DNA of 64,000 bases, from the NCBI GenBank assembly GCA_010672965.1, contig JAAHFN010000023.1, positions 1 through 64,000 on the forward strand, given 5' to 3'. Source of the stretch: Oscillatoria sp. SIO1A7. GTDB lineage: Bacteria; Cyanobacteriota; Cyanobacteriia; Cyanobacteriales; Laspinemataceae. The position numbers and the translations under genes were made by a program. Numbering within the stretch: position 1 is the first letter of the stretch; each line of letters begins with the position of its first letter. The notes under the pieces were generated by a model, which was not told the origin of the DNA, ran no database searches, and worked only from the letters and a program-made list of their open reading frames with translations. Of the stretch, positions 3,597-27,705 are shown in pieces.

Positions 3597-5960
3597 ATGA
3601 GCAAACCCGACTGGCTTGAAATTACCGAATATATCTCTGTTTTTAGTTCTGTTTGCGGAACTGTGGCGGCGGCTGTAACCCAGCAGGCAGTCTATGCTGC
3701 AGCGCCGATCGCCCTGACTTTGGGATTAAATCTGCTGAATCGAGAACGGGCAAACAAGTTGACCCGGAATTTTTCAGAAACAGCAACAATGGAGGTCAGG
3801 GAAGCGGTAAGGGAGGAAATAGCTCCTCTAGGCGATCGCTTGGAGCAATTGGAATCAAAAAGCCAACAGTTTCGCAACCAAGCCAAACAAAGGATTGCCC
3901 AAATCAAAGAATTAAGTAGAGAATCCGGGGAAGCAGCTATAGCTCTAGTCCATCAAATCCTAGACCCAATCGGCGACAAGCTGGATGCTCTAGAATCCGA
4001 AGTACAAGCCAGTCACGATGAAAGAAATAAGCTCCGTCAAGAGCTAGACTCTTTTCCAGAAAGCTTAGCTAAATTAGAGTCTGTTTTGCAGCAAGTCCGC
4101 AAGGAAACTGCCAAGGCTTCGCAAATCGAACCTGCAATCAGCGAGCAACTGGAGCGCTCTCTCAACCCTGTAAGCGATCGCCTCTCTGAGTTGGAGCGAT
4201 CGCTTACAGAGCTGACAGGCTTGGAGCAGCAAGTTAATCAATTAAAAGAAGCGGCGATGGAAACAGTCCGCGAAACTATTGAAACATATTCCTCCCGCTT
4301 AGAAAAAATAGAAACTCAATCGGGTCGTTATGGCACCCGAATTGAGGAAATTCGCGCCCTCGTCCGGGCAGGGGAGACTGGGAGCGATCGCGCCGAGGGG
4401 CAGGAAACGGGGAGCGAGGAGGAGGATGCGATCGCCCCAGTCTCCCTAGACATTTACTACCGTCGCTTGGATGAGTTGGAGTCTGAAATAGAGCGGTATT
4501 CCTCTGCCAATGAAGAGCAGCTTTCTCAATTAAAGGCAAAATTAAAAGAATCTCTGGAACGGGCAGAAGAAGTGGCGATCGCCAAAATAGATGCAGCCCT
4601 CTTACCCTTCATCGAGCGTTTAGAAAAATTGGAGCAATCTCAGACCAATCCAATCCCAACGACGCCATCTGTCTCTCCAGACTCGATTGAGGAAACTCCC
4701 GTAACAGAAACAGAAGACACTGCTGCCAAGCCGGAGCAATCGCCAAAGCAATTATCCAAAGAAGAATCAGAGCCAGAGTCAAGCGTGGCTTCCAGCTTGC
4801 CGCCACAGGTTCCCTCTCAGTATCGCAAAGAAAAAATTACTACTAGAGAAACTGCTGCAACCCCTCCTCCTCCGAGCGAACCTTCAGAACCTCTAGAAGA
4901 AGAATTCCCAGACTTCGATCTTGAGGAGCAGTCTGAGAATCCTGCGGGCAACCGCATCATTGGCGATCTTGAATCTTCCATCGGCGAAGCAGTAAATGAA
5001 ATTCAAGGATTTGTCGGCAATTTATTTAAAGGAAAGACGAGGCCAGATGGAGTAGCTCTTGGCAACGTTCGGGGTTGGAGAGGGTACGGAGCGATCGCAG
5101 GACATGCCGACGGGGTGACATCTGTCTGCATTAGTCCCGATGGCCAGAAAATTGCTAGCGGCGATCGCGATAACACCATTAAAATTTGGCAGCTAGAGAC
5201 TGGCGCAGAACTCTTTAATCTCAGCGGCCCAGAATGGTTTGCTGCTGCCAATTCCATCGTCTGGAGCCCTGACAGTCGAATTATAGCCTGCGCCCTTGGC
5301 GAAAATATCGCTATCTGGCAGAGTAGCAATGGAGAAGAAGTCCGCACCCTAAACGCCAACTGTCCCGTTACTGCGATCGCTTTTATAGACGGACAAACTC
5401 TTACCAGCGGCGATGCCAGTGGTGCTATCAAAACTTGGCAGCCTTTTACAGGAGATTCGCGCCTTCTGGCACAACATTCAGCGGCAATTACTTCTTTAGC
5501 GATTAGTCCCAATGGCCAGATATTAGCTACTGGCAGCGAGGATAACGCTATTCAGTTGTGGCAGCTAAACAGTGGCGAAGCGCTCCGAACTCTTTCAGGA
5601 CATTCCTCGGGGATTTGTTCCGTAGCGATTAGTCCCGACGGTCGTAGCTTAGCCAGTGGCAGCTCAGACAAAACTATAAAGCTATGGCAGCTAGATACTG
5701 GCGAAGAAATGCTGACTCTCCAGGGACATTTAGGTGCTGTTAAGTCTGTAGCAATCAGTCCCGATGGCGAAACTTTGGCGAGTGGCAGCTCTGACAAGAC
5801 TATAAAATTATGGAATCTTGCCACGGGCGAAGAAATATCTACCATCAAGTTGCATTCAGGCGATGTAAATTCCGTTGCTTTTAGCGTTAGCGAAGAAGGG
5901 CAAATATTAGTCAGTGGCAGCGAGGATAAAAATATTCAAATCTGGCGGGCGATCGCTTAA
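3597..5960 (+). CDS. Coiled-coil protein with C-terminal WD40 repeats
   Basis: The 787-residue protein starts with a hydrophobic, Ala/Val/Leu-rich segment (about residues 12-48) that may insert in or lie on a membrane. A long Glu/Lys/Gln-rich coiled-coil part follows (about 60-370), then a Pro/Glu/Ser-rich linker (about 370-450). About six WD40 blades run from residue 495 to the end; the clearest are the repeated SVAISPDG ... LASGSSDKTIKLW units. WD40 propellers are protein-binding platforms, so this is probably a membrane-tethered scaffold; no enzymatic domain is visible. The blades near the C-terminus are almost identical in sequence, which suggests recent internal expansion. The partner is unknown. 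Confidence 0.85.
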   Translation: MSKPDWLEITEYISVFSSVCGTVAAAVTQQAVYAAAPIALTLGLNLLNRERANKLTRNFSETATMEVREAVREEIAPLGDRLEQLESKSQQFRNQAKQRIAQIKELSRESGEAAIALVHQILDPIGDKLDALESEVQASHDERNKLRQELDSFPESLAKLESVLQQVRKETAKASQIEPAISEQLERSLNPVSDRLSELERSLTELTGLEQQVNQLKEAAMETVRETIETYSSRLEKIETQSGRYGTRIEEIRALVRAGETGSDRAEGQETGSEEEDAIAPVSLDIYYRRLDELESEIERYSSANEEQLSQLKAKLKESLERAEEVAIAKIDAALLPFIERLEKLEQSQTNPIPTTPSVSPDSIEETPVTETEDTAAKPEQSPKQLSKEESEPESSVASSLPPQVPSQYRKEKITTRETAATPPPPSEPSEPLEEEFPDFDLEEQSENPAGNRIIGDLESSIGEAVNEIQGFVGNLFKGKTRPDGVALGNVRGWRGYGAIAGHADGVTSVCISPDGQKIASGDRDNTIKIWQLETGAELFNLSGPEWFAAANSIVWSPDSRIIACALGENIAIWQSSNGEEVRTLNANCPVTAIAFIDGQTLTSGDASGAIKTWQPFTGDSRLLAQHSAAITSLAISPNGQILATGSEDNAIQLWQLNSGEALRTLSGHSSGICSVAISPDGRSLASGSSDKTIKLWQLDTGEEMLTLQGHLGAVKSVAISPDGETLASGSSDKTIKLWNLATGEEISTIKLHSGDVNSVAFSVSEEGQILVSGSEDKNIQIWRAIA

Positions 5961-8829: not shown

Positions 8830-11800
8830 TTACCAAGGACTGCCAATCATAGTGAAAGCTGCCCAGTAGTAGGGATGGGACAATACTCTGCTGTCCTCTT
8901 TTGCTGTAGCTGGACTGCTGGGCAAGGGAATGGGTTTTGCCAATCCCGTTCCATACAAGCTACCGTCTTTTATAAAGACCTCGCCCCGAATCATGGCAAT
9001 TTGGGCAAGTCTGAGGGCTTCTGCTTTGGTGGGGGTTTGGCCGAGGTGCTGGTAAAACTGACTCATTAGGCCGAGAGTGCCGCGATCGCTAACATACCAG
9101 AGACTGGCTAGAGCGGATTTTACCCCAGCGGCTACAGCCAAACCGGCAAAACCCAACTCTGCCGAAGTATCTCCTATGGCAGTTTGGCAAGCGCTCAGCA
9201 CTAGCAGCTCCAGGGGCGAGCCGCCCCCTCTTTTGCCCCAACCCATTTCCCGCAATTGTTCCAGGTTTAAGCGGCCGTCTGCTAGCTGGATGTAAGACGC
9301 TCCTGGGTCTCCGGGCTGAAACTGGGAGTGGGTGGCCAGGTGAATTATGCCAAATTGGGCGTTTTCTGAAGCAGCTTTGAGATTTGCCTTGGTAAAAGCT
9401 CGATCTAAGAATAGCTCCCCCGACCATAACCCGGAAGTTATCAAAGATAGCTCTAGGGGGACGGCGGGCAAAGGGGGATGCTCTCGAAATCGGGATGCTC
9501 CCATGCCCAGGATTCGATATTTTCTCAGGTTGGGTTCGTAGCTAGTGTCGGTGAGATTAATGCTGGGAATCAAACTGAGACTGTATTTTTCTATTAAAAA
9601 TTGGCGACCGTCATGTAGGGCAGCTAAGGGCAGCGATCGCAAACCCGCATCTACAGAAAAGAGCAAAGTATCAATGTTTTGGCTAGCTAAAAGTCCCTCC
9701 ATTGGCTCAATTATCAGTTTGTATAGCTCTTGGGCTGGTTCCAGATAGCCGTCCCCTTCCGGACTGATTGATATTGCTGCTGAGAGCCGCTCCGATAGCT
9801 CTAGCAATTGCTCCCTTTTTTTCTTCACAGAAAAACGCGCCGCTGTCGAACCGGGGGAGACGAGGATTATTTCTAGCTCTGTCTCTTGGGAAACTACATA
9901 AGCGATCGCTGGCTTTTTCCCGGAGAGCCTCTCTATTCGTCCCAGAGTTTCGCGAATAGTCTCCACGCTCCCAGAGTCGTCGCCCGGACGAGTTAGTGGT
10001 TCAAACTCCTGAGCAAATAATTGCTCCACAAATAAGACCAAACCTTCCGAATCTAGAGCGGCAAAATCTGGTTGCCCCCCTGCTCTTGCTTCTCCTGTCC
10101 CAGAGGGCGTCTCATTATTATTTGTTTGGTCTTCTATCTGGTTCGTCTTCGCACTATTCTGCGCCGATGTATCCCCAGTTGTTTCTACTGGTTGCAGGTC
10201 CACTATTGGTTGCGGATCGGCTACTGCTTGCCCCCCTGCTCCCACAGTCCCCTGCCCCCCTGCTTCTAATTGCGGGTCGGCTACTGGTTGCGGGTCGGCT
10301 ACTGGTTCTGCTGCTGCTTGCCCCCCTGCTCCCACAGTCCCCTGCCCCCCTGCTTCTAATTGCGGGTCGGCTACTGGTTGCGGGTCTGCACCGAAACTGC
10401 CCTGCCCCCCTGCTCCCACAGTCCCCTGCCCCCCTGCTCCTAATTGCCGGTCGGCTACTGGTTGCGGATCGGCTACTGCTTGCCCCCCTGCTCCTCCGCT
10501 CCCTGCTACTAATGGCGGGTCGGCTACTGGTTGCGGGTCTGCACCGAAACTGCCCTGCCCCCCTGCTCCCCCGTTCCCCTGCCCCGTTCCTCCGTTCCCC
10601 TGGGGCTCGGCAGGTATGACTACTGGATCGCTCGTAGGATCCAGAGGTTGTGGCTCTGGCAGAGGTTCTTCGGGAGTTTCTTGTGGAGGTTCTGGCGGCT
10701 GAGCGACAGTGCCATTGGTGATAATCGAAAAAGTATCTTCTTGGAAACTGCCAGGGAAAGTACGCTCTGGTAAAACAGCTAACTCCCCAGTATCTATAGC
10801 AGAGCCAGTTCCGTTTTCCGTCGCATCCCCGACTATAAAAGGAATCCCCGCCGCGCCTCCACCATGCTCGATGGTTACCGAGCCGGTTGCTCTAATCCTA
10901 TTGGCCACGGATACGGTTCCCTCTGGGGCCGAGAGGATAACCGTTTCGCTGTTAGAGATGCTGGCGATCGCAATACTCCCCCCAGAAGCAGCTCCACTGG
11001 AAATAAATATCGTCCCTCCTCCACCGCCAAAGGAACCGGGCACCAGATTCGGTTCTGCTATTTCTTCTACTCCCGCTCGCAAGATAACAGCGGCCTGGGT
11101 CTGTAGGATGCGCGCATCGGCATCGTCCCCGACTAGGGTTGTATCCGGGCCGACTATAGAAATATCGCCGCCAAAGATGTTTCCTCCAGCTTCTATTTTC
11201 AGGGAGACCCCAGAGTAGTCGCCAAAAACAACATCCCCCCGGGCGCTGATTATCGGGTCGAATAGGCTCAGGAACTGACCGGGCTCGCCAGTGGCAGTGG
11301 AGAGCCTGAAGCTGCCGCCAGCTCTGAAGTGAGAGTCTCCAGAAAAATTGCCTGTTCCGGCGATCGCAACGATATCTCCCAAAGCTTGGAAAGGAGGGTT
11401 ATCGGCGGCTTCGGGAGATAGAGCCAAAATATCTATATCTTCTCCGGCGGCTATCTGTAGTTCGTTCCCGGCTCTGGCAGCGAACAGTTGCTCGCCGCTA
11501 TCCCTAATCCGCACGGTTCCATCGGCAATAAGTCTTATATCTCCATTGCCGCTCAGCTCGGTTCCCAGCAAAGTTAGATCGTTCGCGGCTTGCAGCAACA
11601 ACGTCCCCGTCTCTATCTCTGCGTTTTGCAAAGCAACATCTCCGCTTTCCACTGCAATCCCCGAACCCGTTAGCCGCACGGTCCCACTTCCATCTATCTC
11701 CACGGCGCTGGCATGGCCGCCAACGCCTCCGGTCAGCAGTTTCGGCAGGGAAAGGACTGGCGGCACCGATGGATTTTCATTGCCAAGATTTTCATTACCA

Positions 11801-22241: not shown

Positions 22242-23261
22242 ATGACAGGACAAATTCTCGGCGGACGCTACCGAATTCTCAAGTTTTTGGGTCAAGGGGG
22301 GTTTGCGGAAACCTATATAGCTGAAGACATACATCTGCCCGATCGCCCCCAGCATGTAGTTAAGAAGCTCCAGCCCTTGGGAGCAAATGGCGCGCCTCCC
22401 GATCCTGCGGTATTGCAAATCGCCCGGCGCCTCTTCGATAGGGAAGCCAAAGTTCTCTATCAACTGGGAAACCACGACCGGATTCCCAAATTGTTGGCGC
22501 ATTTCCAGGAAAGCCAAGAATTCTATTTAGTTCAGGAATTTATCGAAGGGCAAGACCTCAGTAGCGAAATCTGCCCGGGCAAGGTGCTGACCGAGGAAGC
22601 TGTGATTGACTTGTTGCGCAGCAGCCTAGAAGTATTGGTCTTCGTCCATCAGCACGATACTATTCACCGAGACATCAAGCCCTCGAATTTAATTCGCCGC
22701 GCCTCGGACGGTCGGATTGTACCGATTGACTTTGGCGCGGCAAAACAAATTAGCAGCAAAATAGCGATCGCTCTAGGTCAAGCGGCTCCTACGGTAATTG
22801 GCACTCCGGGCTATATGCCCAAGGAACAAGAACTGGGCAAGCCCGAACTCAGCAGCGATATCTATGCTTTAGGGATGACGGCAATTCAAGCTTTGACTGG
22901 GGTTCTGCCCGGGCAGCTACCTACGGATGCCGACGGCGAAATTATCTGGCAGAATCGGGCGCGGGTCAGCAACAAAATCGCAGCTATTTTAAGCAAAATG
23001 GTTCGCTACGACTATCGCCAGCGCTATCCATCGGCAATTGAGGTATTGGAAGCCCTAGACGCCCTGGATCCAAGGGTGGCTTCAGTTACGAAGAAAAGCA
23101 CAAAGCCAAAAAAGTCAAATCGACTTACCCTGTGGCTGTCTTTACTAGCGCTGCTATTTGCTACTGCTGCCCTTGGAATTACCATAACTGCGATCGTATC
23201 CGGCTCTGGGTTTATTGCCCCCAAGCAACCTAGAGAACAAAATAGAGATTGGGAGTGGTAA
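22242..23261 (+). CDS. Serine/threonine protein kinase (PknB-like) with C-terminal membrane anchor
   Basis: 339 residues. The kinase domain (about 10-275) shows the Gly-rich loop GQGGFAETY, catalytic Lys in VVKKL (41/42), HRDIKPSN (Asp144), DFG (163-165), and the activation-loop end GTPGYMPKEQ. Residues about 285-320 give a basic stretch followed by one transmembrane helix (LWLSLLALLFATAALGITITAIV); the rest is a short tail of about 15 residues. Most relatives carry a longer sensor or effector domain after the helix; here it is nearly absent, so this is a minimal membrane-anchored kinase. The start ATG follows repeat DNA with no obvious ribosome binding site. Confidence 0.9.
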   Translation: MTGQILGGRYRILKFLGQGGFAETYIAEDIHLPDRPQHVVKKLQPLGANGAPPDPAVLQIARRLFDREAKVLYQLGNHDRIPKLLAHFQESQEFYLVQEFIEGQDLSSEICPGKVLTEEAVIDLLRSSLEVLVFVHQHDTIHRDIKPSNLIRRASDGRIVPIDFGAAKQISSKIAIALGQAAPTVIGTPGYMPKEQELGKPELSSDIYALGMTAIQALTGVLPGQLPTDADGEIIWQNRARVSNKIAAILSKMVRYDYRQRYPSAIEVLEALDALDPRVASVTKKSTKPKKSNRLTLWLSLLALLFATAALGITITAIVSGSGFIAPKQPREQNRDWEW

Positions 23262-24889: not shown

Positions 24890-27076
24890 TCAATAAAAAA
24901 CTAGGACAGTGAAAATGAGCAAAACTTTTAAAAAGAAAGGCCAGTAAAGGAGTTTCGGTATGAGGTTATCTTTATAATTCAGCACCTCCATTTTGGTGCG
25001 GGATGCGAGCAGCAATGCGTTGAGCGTCACCAACAAAATCAAAACATATAGGATAAAATAGAAAAATTCTATATAGATAATACCGCCAGTCGAGATGCTA
25101 CTCCTAAGATTGATTTGATCTAAAATGACGATAAAAATAAAAGCGCCGCTGGTGGAGACAATTTCCATAGCGCTGAAGCTGAGAGCCTCATTATCTCCGT
25201 TATTTTTTCTCAAGAGCATCTGGATGAAGAACAGCAGGCAAGCCAGCACCATGCTGGGCATGACATTAGAAATAAAAACCGTCAAGAAATTTCTTTTAGC
25301 TATGATAGTAAAATAAAGCTCTGGAAATTCCTGGTAAACTGTGTCCGCATTGGTTAGCTCAAAACCGAAATAAGTATTATATTCATTTATTCTGTATTGG
25401 AAAAAGCTGCTCTCCAAATCCCATCCAGGAAATACAAAATCTTTTTCTACCCCGGGGATAGATGTCGGATTCATCTCGCTGTAAGAATCCAAATCCGGCA
25501 CCAGAATTATATTTTGATAAAAATCGCTGCTCCAGATGCGCACCCAAATATCCTTGGAGTCAAATGGATAGCGGTTGTAATTGAAGTTCTGGCGAAGTAC
25601 GGCTTCAAAGTACCAGCCGACGACTTCGTGAGTTTCTGTCTCAAAGCGATAAGCCTCAATAGGCTCAAAATCTGCAGAGGTAATGGCTTCCGGCAAGACA
25701 AATCCGGCGGTTTCTTCGTCGGGGATGATATCGGGTAAGCTTTTGGGAAACTTTTGCCAGAGGTAACCGGAGATAAAGACGTTATTAGCTCCTTGAAACT
25801 CCATAGATTGGATGAAAAGACCCGTGGGTATTTTTATAGCAGAGCTTTTTTCTAATTTCCGATCTATCTTGGCGCGAGATTCCAAAAAGCTCTGTAACCC
25901 CTCGTTACTGAGGATAACTGTACCTTCGGTATTTTTGTCAGGGCGTTCGATGAAAGACAAATACCAAATAAATCCGATGCCTCCGCTCAAAAATACCGAG
26001 GTGCTAACTGATACGGCCCAAAGGCTCCACAGGCTCCCTTTATAAGCTCGGAATAGGATTATAGAAAAGAAAAATAAGCAAGATATACTGCCCAGAGCTA
26101 TCCAGATTGGCTTGTGCTTCGTGGCGTTGTCGGTAAATATTTCGTCTTTTATAAATACTACGCCAAGAGCCCAGCTAGTTGAGGGAATCGGTTCAAAAAA
26201 TACCCAGGTAGATTGACCTGTCTCTTCGTTGCGATCGTCGATTTCCACGCTCTCGCCAGCAATAGCTCTTTTACTAGCCTCCAGCAGGATATTATACTTA
26301 TCCTGGATAACCTTCTTCTCTGGCTCTAATAGATTCCCCGTGTCTTCTATAAAATCTTTGATTGGATGGTAGATAAAATTACCTTCTTGAGAAATGAGAA
26401 ATCCGTATCCGGTTTTGCCGATAGTAAGGGATTTCATCAATTTTTCTATATCTTTCCAAGCATAATTGACGCTAACTACACCAGCGATATCCTTTTTTTC
26501 GCTTTCCTTATCTTTGTGGTAAAATGGAGCGCCAAATGCCACCAGCATATTATTGCTTATTTCGCTAAAAAATGGTTCTACCCAGGTAGCTCCTTCCTTC
26601 TGAGGTTTGTGATACCATTCGTATTGCGGTAGTGTGTAAGCGTAGTATTTTTCTATAGGTCGGTATTCTATTTTGTCCCCTGTTCTAGCGTAATAGGGGG
26701 CGTAAAGGGGTATTTTTTCAAATTTTCCGGCATCTCTCGGATAGGTAAAAGGCTTGTAACTGGCTGCGAGACCTGAGATTTTGGGGTTTGACTCTATTTC
26801 TGCAAGCAAGCGCTCTTGGAGCCCATCTTCTCCTAATTCTCCTGTGGTAATATCGTTTGCAATACCTAGAGCTATATCGCTCAGTTTTTGCAATTCTGCA
26901 TCGATTTGCTGGGCAGCTCTAACAGCCTCTTGTTTTGGACGGTATTTCGCTTCCTGTCTTTTTTGCTGCCTTTCATTAAAATATGAATAGGCCATCATTA
27001 CGACGAATAACAAACTGGCAGTACCCAGAGCCAAGGATACTCGAAAAAATAATGCTGGAGATGCAGATATTTTCAT
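24890..27076 (-). CDS. Cache sensor domain fused to a pentameric ligand-gated ion channel-like domain
   Basis: 728 residues. TM1 is at about 10-30; a periplasmic PDC/Cache sensor follows (about 45-318) with the typical WYHKPQKEG...VEPFF, GAPFY and GKTGYGFLISQEGNFIYHP motifs; TM2 and TM3 are at about 323-343 and 353-375. Residues 380-590 form a second extracytoplasmic part resembling the beta-sandwich of Cys-loop receptors: a pro-loop without cysteines, RYPFDSKDIWVRIW (502-515), then FTIIAKRNFLTVF leading into four closing helices (about 595-622, 634-656, 663-692, 708-728) in the M1-M4 order. I infer a channel gated or tuned by a Cache-bound small molecule. It reads away from cytM, 200 bp apart; monocistronic. 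Confidence 0.8.
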   Translation of the reverse strand: MKISASPALFFRVSLALGTASLLFVVMMAYSYFNERQQKRQEAKYRPKQEAVRAAQQIDAELQKLSDIALGIANDITTGELGEDGLQERLLAEIESNPKISGLAASYKPFTYPRDAGKFEKIPLYAPYYARTGDKIEYRPIEKYYAYTLPQYEWYHKPQKEGATWVEPFFSEISNNMLVAFGAPFYHKDKESEKKDIAGVVSVNYAWKDIEKLMKSLTIGKTGYGFLISQEGNFIYHPIKDFIEDTGNLLEPEKKVIQDKYNILLEASKRAIAGESVEIDDRNEETGQSTWVFFEPIPSTSWALGVVFIKDEIFTDNATKHKPIWIALGSISCLFFFSIILFRAYKGSLWSLWAVSVSTSVFLSGGIGFIWYLSFIERPDKNTEGTVILSNEGLQSFLESRAKIDRKLEKSSAIKIPTGLFIQSMEFQGANNVFISGYLWQKFPKSLPDIIPDEETAGFVLPEAITSADFEPIEAYRFETETHEVVGWYFEAVLRQNFNYNRYPFDSKDIWVRIWSSDFYQNIILVPDLDSYSEMNPTSIPGVEKDFVFPGWDLESSFFQYRINEYNTYFGFELTNADTVYQEFPELYFTIIAKRNFLTVFISNVMPSMVLACLLFFIQMLLRKNNGDNEALSFSAMEIVSTSGAFIFIVILDQINLRSSISTGGIIYIEFFYFILYVLILLVTLNALLLASRTKMEVLNYKDNLIPKLLYWPFFLKVLLIFTVLVFY

Positions 27077-27276: not shown

Positions 27277-27705
27277 TTATAGTTTTTCCAAGTAACTGAG
27301 TAAATCTGCCATTTCTTGGGGATTAGGCTTGAATTGCGGCATAGGAGGAGTCTTGCCACTGGTGACTTGACGGATTAGCCCCATGCGAGACCGGCGCTGG
27401 GAGACGCCATACAGGCTCGGGCCAACCTGAGTGCCCTGGTGAAACCAGTGACAGCCAGAGCAGTTCATTTGAAATATGGCACTACCCCGAACTGGATCGC
27501 CGCTCAGGGATATGACTGTTTTTATATAGGGGTCGGACATTTGAGCCTGGTAGGCGACCAGTACCCCCAAGCCGATGGCCAAGACAACGATCGCAGCCCA
27601 GGCGAGCGAGCTTGTTTTGAGTAAAGACTGCCCGGCCAAGCTGGCGATCGCGGCGCTAGTGCTATCCTCTATGTCCGCTTCAGATTTACCAAGTTGCTTA
27701 TCCAA
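27277..27705 (-). CDS. cytM: Cytochrome M (membrane-anchored c-type cytochrome)
   Basis: 142 residues. An N-terminal cytoplasmic part of about 33 residues, one transmembrane helix (about 35-53, AWAAIVVLAIGLGVLVAYQ), then a class I cytochrome c domain with haem motif CSGCH (Cys82, Cys85, His86) and the sixth ligand Met122 in TPPMPQF. DPYIKTVISLSGDPVRG before the haem site is typical of cyanobacterial cytochrome M. CytM modulates photosynthesis and respiration under stress or mixotrophy in Synechocystis. It lies divergent from petG, about 335 bp away. The N-terminal cytoplasmic extension is longer than in Synechocystis CytM. Confidence 0.85.
   Translation of the reverse strand: MDKQLGKSEADIEDSTSAAIASLAGQSLLKTSSLAWAAIVVLAIGLGVLVAYQAQMSDPYIKTVISLSGDPVRGSAIFQMNCSGCHWFHQGTQVGPSLYGVSQRRSRMGLIRQVTSGKTPPMPQFKPNPQEMADLLSYLEKL

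Follow-up and report, generated by a model that had tools for sequence, protein, structure and literature searches.

The window, a stretch of 64,000 nucleotides from the cyanobacterium Oscillatoria sp. SIO1A7, encodes a protein that joins an N-terminal Cache sensor to a module homologous to the pentameric ligand-gated ion channels (pLGICs), a family that includes channels carrying nerve signals in animals. A predicted transmembrane (TM) hairpin separates the two modules. The protein is probably the subunit of a Pro-loop receptor pentamer in which each subunit carries its own dCache domain and a Cache ligand gates the pore by way of the hairpin. Judged from sequence, the protein family branches deeply within the pLGIC superfamily, has been little studied, and goes unseen by Pfam.

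Domain layout and membrane topology

The gene is an intact ORF on the minus strand (Table 1); the first-pass annotation had read a 728-residue protein from these positions and named no strand. Each subunit is predicted to be composed of TM1, a periplasmic dCache domain, TM2, a short cytoplasmic turn, TM3, a periplasmic ligand-binding domain, and the helices M1–M4. Kyte-Doolittle hydropathy gives seven segments (residues 9–27, 324–342, 352–370, 600–618, 634–652, 672–690, and 709–727). The first two flank the dCache_1 match, in agreement with an earlier placement of a Cache/PDC domain at about residues 45–318 between TM helices, and the last four correspond to the closing helices noted at that time. 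The hairpin formed by TM2 and TM3 was absent from the earlier statement. Its turn, residues 343–351 (RAYKGSLWS), contains two K/R and zero D/E residues. These charges fit a cytoplasmic turn, so that the domain after the hairpin is predicted to be periplasmic again. The hairpin thus implies subunits with seven membrane spans.

Table 1. Features of the Cache–pLGIC gene and its product, in positions of the window
Feature	Residues	Positions	Strand	Evidence
Gene of the 728-aa Cache–TM hairpin–pLGIC protein, stop included		24890..27076	minus	ORF and translation
TM1, N-terminal anchor, N terminus predicted cytoplasmic	9–27	26996..27052	minus	hydropathy; charges
dCache_1 periplasmic sensor	54–307	26156..26917	minus	Pfam PF02743, 3.8e-16; PDB Cache domains 3li8, 3lic, 3lib
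TM2 of hairpin, predicted periplasm to cytoplasm	324–342	26051..26107	minus	hydropathy 2.41; helix 322–344 in low-confidence AlphaFold model
TM3 of hairpin, predicted cytoplasm to periplasm	352–374	25955..26023	minus	hydropathy 1.61 (352–370); helix 349–375 in low-confidence AlphaFold model; charges
pLGIC ligand-binding (extracytoplasmic) domain	378–592	25301..25945	minus	hhalign, domain alone against canonical pLGICs: Prob 96.9, E 1.7e-10
Pro-loop motif (RYPFD)	R502–D506	25559..25573	minus	P504 invariant in 17/17; aligned to RYPFD of GLIC
M1, after conserved R595	600–618	25223..25279	minus	hydropathy and alignments
M2, predicted pore helix, E638 near cytoplasmic end	634–652	25121..25177	minus	hydropathy, alignment, charges
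M3, E670 just before	672–690	25007..25063	minus	hydropathy and alignment
M4, C terminus	709–727	24896..24952	minus	hydropathy

In the 728-residue protein, dCache_1 (59.8 bits against a gathering cut-off of 45) and MCP-like_PDC_1 score above their Pfam cut-offs, and other Pfam matches fall below. The PDB sequences matched by the sensor part are Cache sensors, with 3li8 at 7.1e-10. Among ten relatives scanned with Pfam, a Cache family was matched at E 0.1 or better in seven and none in three short ones (L015, L018, and L019). dCache_1 was matched in eight of nine Bacteroidota members, with a best E-value of 1.7e-5. Several relatives score below the dCache_1 gathering score, and the term sensor-bearing is used here for a wider class than Cache by Pfam.

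The amino-acid and amine motif of dCache_1AA and dCache_1AM domains includes a key Asp, at the position of D173 (PMC10104139). In an alignment with 3lib, this position is N204 in the window protein, and it is D in 2 of 21 members. Since the key Asp is not kept, an amino acid or amine binding through this motif is unlikely, and the amino acids or amines suggested in the first-pass annotation as Cache ligands are not favoured; the ligand may be another compound.

The C-terminal half is homologous to pLGICs

The homology of residues ~378–728 to pLGICs is established by profile comparison. The profile of the family's C-terminal region aligns with 13 canonical pLGICs, found via PF02931 in the window's phylum, at an hhalign Prob of 98.6 and an E-value of 1.1e-15 over 281 columns. 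Two reversed and ten column-shuffled control profiles give a Prob of 0.0–1.5, and the ligand-binding domain alone gives a Prob of 0.1 against a reversed profile. M1–M4 alone reach a Prob of 9.1 with the canonical pLGICs, indicating that the pore half is strongly diverged. A profile built from 17 sequences of the C-terminal half matches GLIC among PDB sequences at 5.9e-9, over GLIC residues 105–308, which extend from before the Pro-loop to M4. The alignment of the 13 canonical sequences matches GLIC at 1.6e-69. A Cys-loop-family-like second domain followed by channel helices had been read from the sequence before, together with a proposal to compare this region by profile, and the controlled alignment and the GLIC match bear that reading out. 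We infer that the protein forms a pentamer and functions as a channel.

A Pfam scan of the 728-residue protein detected the sensor families alone and no channel family, a 5-sequence profile gave no pLGIC match against PDB sequences, and phmmer with the single sequence matched acetylcholine receptor gamma chains in the PDB just weakly (E 0.0071, residues 567–691). These searches speak for a C-terminal half that belongs to an unrelated 4-TM family and contains YPFD by chance. Such an origin is extremely improbable. It is contradicted by the hhalign Prob of 98.6 against at most 1.5 in the controls, and also by the GLIC profile match and by Foldseek. On these alignments, the YPFD match is more than a chance motif.

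AlphaFold2 models of residues 1–728 and 378–728, each with a pLDDT of 49 from a four-sequence input, are too poor for the β-sandwich; the order of strands and helices fits. With the low-confidence model of residues 378–728, Foldseek ranked GLIC first (E 1.4e-5), and all 44 matches at E ≤0.001 are pLGIC chains by title, including GLIC and its mutants, DeCLIC, GABA-A, and a glycine-receptor chimera. The TM-scores by query length are just 0.17–0.28 over these 44 matches, and on so poor a model they give the Foldseek result little weight.

The Pro-loop of the window protein is contained in NRYPFDSKDIWVRIW, which carries P504. This proline is invariant in the 17 aligned members, and the Pro-loop Pro is present in 31 of 31 members. 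The acidic position two residues further on, D506 here, is D in 26 of the 31 and N in five. R595, the basic residue ending the ligand-binding domain, is conserved to 90% or more across the 17 rows aligned; a basic residue at this end is a criterion of the superfamily (PMC549065). Residues 378–592 contain no cysteine, and the protein is therefore a Pro-loop receptor and not a Cys-loop receptor in the strict sense. The original label Cys-loop-like is corrected accordingly.

Four segments of M1–M4 are above threshold in 24 of the 31 members and three in six; one member (L003) is cut by the contig end. By alignment, E638 has an M2 register of 3', −1', or −2'. Its column is acidic in 18 members, R in 4, and neutral in 9. 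Cation-selective pLGICs bear acidic rings where M2 ends on the cytoplasmic side, and E638 could constitute such a cation-selecting ring.

Distribution and descent of the family

A second copy is present on another contig of the window's own genome and is 54% identical to the window copy. Relatives are also found in Oscillatoriaceae cyanobacterium M33_DOE_052 (66% identity), two Bacteroidetes MAGs (29% and 27%), and Vibrio sp. THAF191d (24%). The relative in Acaryochloris marina MBIC10699 (33%) contains the channel module only and is annotated 'hypothetical protein'. Two genomes behind relatives, G041 and G044, are rated 7% contaminated, which makes the phylum of those relatives less sure.

A full-length profile at 1e-10 matched 23 of 386 genomes in the window's phylum, 15 over the channel module and eight over Cache only. 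With a module profile at 1e-5, 22 of 395 genomes matched in the phylum of the Bacteroidetes relative, and 15 of these 22 have a long ORF that includes the sensor. The same search matched 58 of 388 genomes in the window's class. Four of these have long members, six have Cache-less members, and the rest are weaker matches (best 3.6e-16) that include, among the loci inspected, canonical pLGICs and pLGICs fused to PBP-I domains. In the window's taxonomic family, 3 of 14 genomes matched, one of them Cache-less. The viral contigs and phage records searched contained no relative. PF02931 is present in 14 of the 386 phylum genomes and at none of the module loci of the Cache–pLGIC family in the same genomes. 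Pfam detected a channel family in 0 of 24 members scanned, so that the genes may be taken for those of Cache or hypothetical proteins. In one genome (G002), the gene is split near M2–M3 by ~1.2 kb (L086, 7809–8507 beside 8947–10881). The gap contains an ORF that is transposase-like by eye and has no Pfam match.

In a tree of 56 rows, 31 sensor-bearing proteins are separated from 25 canonical pLGICs by one branch (100/100). Since the family's own sequences or profiles were used to gather the sensor-bearing rows, the branch shows separation from the sampled canonical rows and not an absence of other Cache fusions. A 50-row tree with the Vibrio and Acaryochloris proteins agrees with the split. 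In a 57-row tree to which eight Cache-less and four PBP-I-fused rows were added, 25 sensor-bearing and the eight Cache-less proteins form one 100/100 group, and the PBP-I-fused rows form one group (99/99) outside it. By these sequences, the members of the 100/100 clade come from the window's phylum, from Bacteroidota, and from one Vibrio, and none of the canonical or PBP-I-fused rows sampled falls inside it. All trees are unrooted, and near-copies and long branches were removed from the 50-row and 57-row trees. From the loci of the class search, L103–L108, L119, L121, L123, and L125 only were taken into the tree. L033 and L078 (scan picked another ORF), L012/L102 (split gene), and L040, L074, and L076 (near-copies or spares) were left out of the counts.

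The eight Cache-less rows form one set (99/93) nested in the family, with Cache-bearing rows from the class of the window as the neighbours of this set (93/84, not starred). By eye, each of these proteins has a short start followed by TM3 as the only helix before the ligand-binding domain. The set would most simply reflect one loss of Cache. Since Cache-less members exist and three relatives contain no Pfam Cache, not every lineage requires the sensor.

Hydropathy shows both hairpin helices in 30 of the 31 sensor-bearing proteins, the exception being L005, whose second helix is under threshold. Ahead of the Pro-loop, 22 of the 25 canonical pLGICs have no more than one segment, and the other three have a second, isolated one. 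The sensor and channel also diverged together. Their distances correlate with an r of 0.92, and 0 of 2000 permutations gave a value as high, in a sample of 21 of the 32 sensor-bearing members that excluded six rows and five proteins of <690 aa. The window copy and L001 share 60% identity in the sensor, 71% in the hairpin, 69% in the ligand-binding domain, and 77% in M1–M4.

No other gene recurs in most of the 16 neighbourhoods clustered, as would suit a sensor-effector that works by itself. An ABC-type ATPase (4 of 16, the window included) and a Ser/Thr-kinase-like protein (3 of 16: the window, L081, and L089) make up the widest clusters, and the remaining clusters are common to close relatives. 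Each of the Ser/Thr-kinase-like genes is no more than a few kb from the Cache–pLGIC gene; the one in the window is at 22242–23258 on the plus strand. About 200 bases upstream of the window gene, and on its strand, a cytochrome c protein is encoded (27277–27705, minus strand; Pfam 1.3e-8). Small CxxCH proteins are directly upstream in L091 and L092 as well, and the window CxxCH protein falls in no cluster with them at 1e-8. These three kinds of neighbour were taken as coincidence, the first two being common kinds of gene and the CxxCH protein of the window not clustering with the other two.

Three neighbour genes are common to the paralogue and the Oscillatoriaceae relative (L079 and L080) and not to the window copy, which is nevertheless nearer than the paralogue to that relative by sequence. 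In Vibrio sp. THAF191d (L095, 1681–5932), the Cache–pLGIC gene overlaps the second of two upstream genes by 4 bases, and these two overlap each other by 4 bases. One encodes an SBP_bac_3 protein (5.2e-27) in which TM helices are recognisable by eye, the other a small membrane protein that matches no Pfam family. The Vibrio channel may have a transporter-derived binding protein as a partner. In L088, an ORF at 4375–5334 on the minus strand, ~2 kb from a family member, looks like a canonical pLGIC by eye and has no Pfam match.

Proposed gating and relation to known channels

Known Cache receptors relay ligand binding to the cytoplasm along TM2. In the Cache–pLGIC protein, a small molecule would bind the Cache domain and TM2 would then most likely move as in chemoreceptors. 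Where the movement would otherwise reach a cytoplasmic signalling domain, here it would return along TM3 and arrive at the start of the ligand-binding domain. Opening of the M2 pore would thereby be biased, and a periplasmic chemical signal would become an ion flux. A homopentamer would contain 35 TM helices, seven per subunit. This proposal draws on the family membership and order of both modules, the predicted topology, the single branch of the sampled members, and the co-divergence; the pentamer, conduction, the Cache ligand, and coupling through the hairpin would follow by inference. Counting against it are the diverged pore half, the variable E638 column, the pLDDT of the models, the 5-sequence profile without a pLGIC match, the members that lack a Cache match, and the split gene of G002. 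In addition, dCache domains are commonly described as dimers, an awkward fit to five-fold symmetry. That a deep pLGIC branch unseen by Pfam has seven-helix subunits whose Cache domain gates the pore through a TM hairpin into the membrane and back is put forward tentatively. To our knowledge, gating through such a hairpin is known for no pLGIC.

An agonist could alternatively act at the canonical inter-domain site, with the Cache domain modulating the channel or concentrating its ligand and the hairpin serving as a tether. The ligand-binding domain and M1–M4 are kept in Cache-less members, in line with two ligands, and Cache and PBP domains were proposed as pre-sensors by Tasneem et al. (PMC549065). 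Co-divergence of sensor and channel argues against this arrangement, as does the hairpin, whose presence in members of both the window's phylum and Bacteroidota goes beyond the need of a loose tether; a dual-ligand channel is thus rather unlikely. Less likely still is a receptor that uses the pLGIC-like build as a scaffold and signals through protein contacts rather than ion flow. The strongly diverged pore half and the lack of a charge kept across the family at the E638 column would suit a non-conducting receptor, but the family retains the four helices together with the Pro-loop and R595, and the chain has no cytoplasmic signalling domain.

Gating by a Cache domain through the hairpin would distinguish the family from channels of related architecture. 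Cache/MCP-N fused ART-LGICs have been described in Methanosarcina, Cytophaga, and Microbulbifer, and cyanobacterial members were called simple forms (Tasneem et al., 2005; PMC549065). As in the window protein, a Cache-type sensor is N-terminal to a ligand-binding and 4-TM channel domain. However, the extra domains are placed there between the signal peptide and the ligand-binding domain and the available text mentions no hairpin, which sets them apart by description. The first-pass suggestion of a cyanobacterial Cache–pLGIC holds; the fusion as a kind was already described (PMC549065). In the open-access literature searched, which most subscription papers lie outside, this paper is the only one that joins a cache domain and a ligand-gated ion channel, judged by title and abstract start. 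The word Cache is absent from the available text of PMC4795631.

GLIC and the canonical PF02931 pLGICs of the window's phylum share the ligand-binding domain, the Pro-loop, and M1–M4, but contain neither Cache nor hairpin and lie on a separate branch (100/100). DeCLIC, too, has an accessory domain in the periplasm that precedes the ligand-binding domain. In DeCLIC, this domain consists of two jelly-roll lobes packed on the ligand-binding domain (PMC9897478, PMC12664993), whereas the window protein has a Cache fold separated from it by a TM hairpin. DeCLIC is the only pLGIC with a partially characterised N-terminal domain according to the available text of a 2025 paper (PMC12664993).

PBP-I-fused pLGICs likewise carry a periplasmic sensor and also occur in the window's class, but the four rows in the tree group outside the family and show no hairpin by eye. 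Peripla_BP_6 (Pfam) is fused directly to the pLGIC module in L119, L121, and L123, and L124–L128 are alike by eye; many ORFs of similar length matched in one genus of the class. In L121 (1–3459, minus strand), Peripla_BP_6 and the pLGIC match are followed after M4 by SBP_bac_1 (4.2e-32). In L122 (1162–3606, plus strand), a pLGIC match (Neur_chan_memb 2.1e-4, below cut-off) is followed by SBP_bac_5 (1e-38). Both ORFs extend to the limit of the locus retrieved. For a pLGIC, carrying a sensor at the extracellular C terminus may be more unusual than the Cache fusion.

New here are the cyanobacterial case with its paralogue, the hairpin that leads to a 7-TM subunit, the 100/100 clade, the nested Cache-less subgroup, and the co-divergence of sensor and channel. 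As one clade holds both sensor-bearing and naturally Cache-less members, control of a pentameric channel by an accessory sensor becomes testable by comparison. The family may help explain how bacteria use pLGIC channels.
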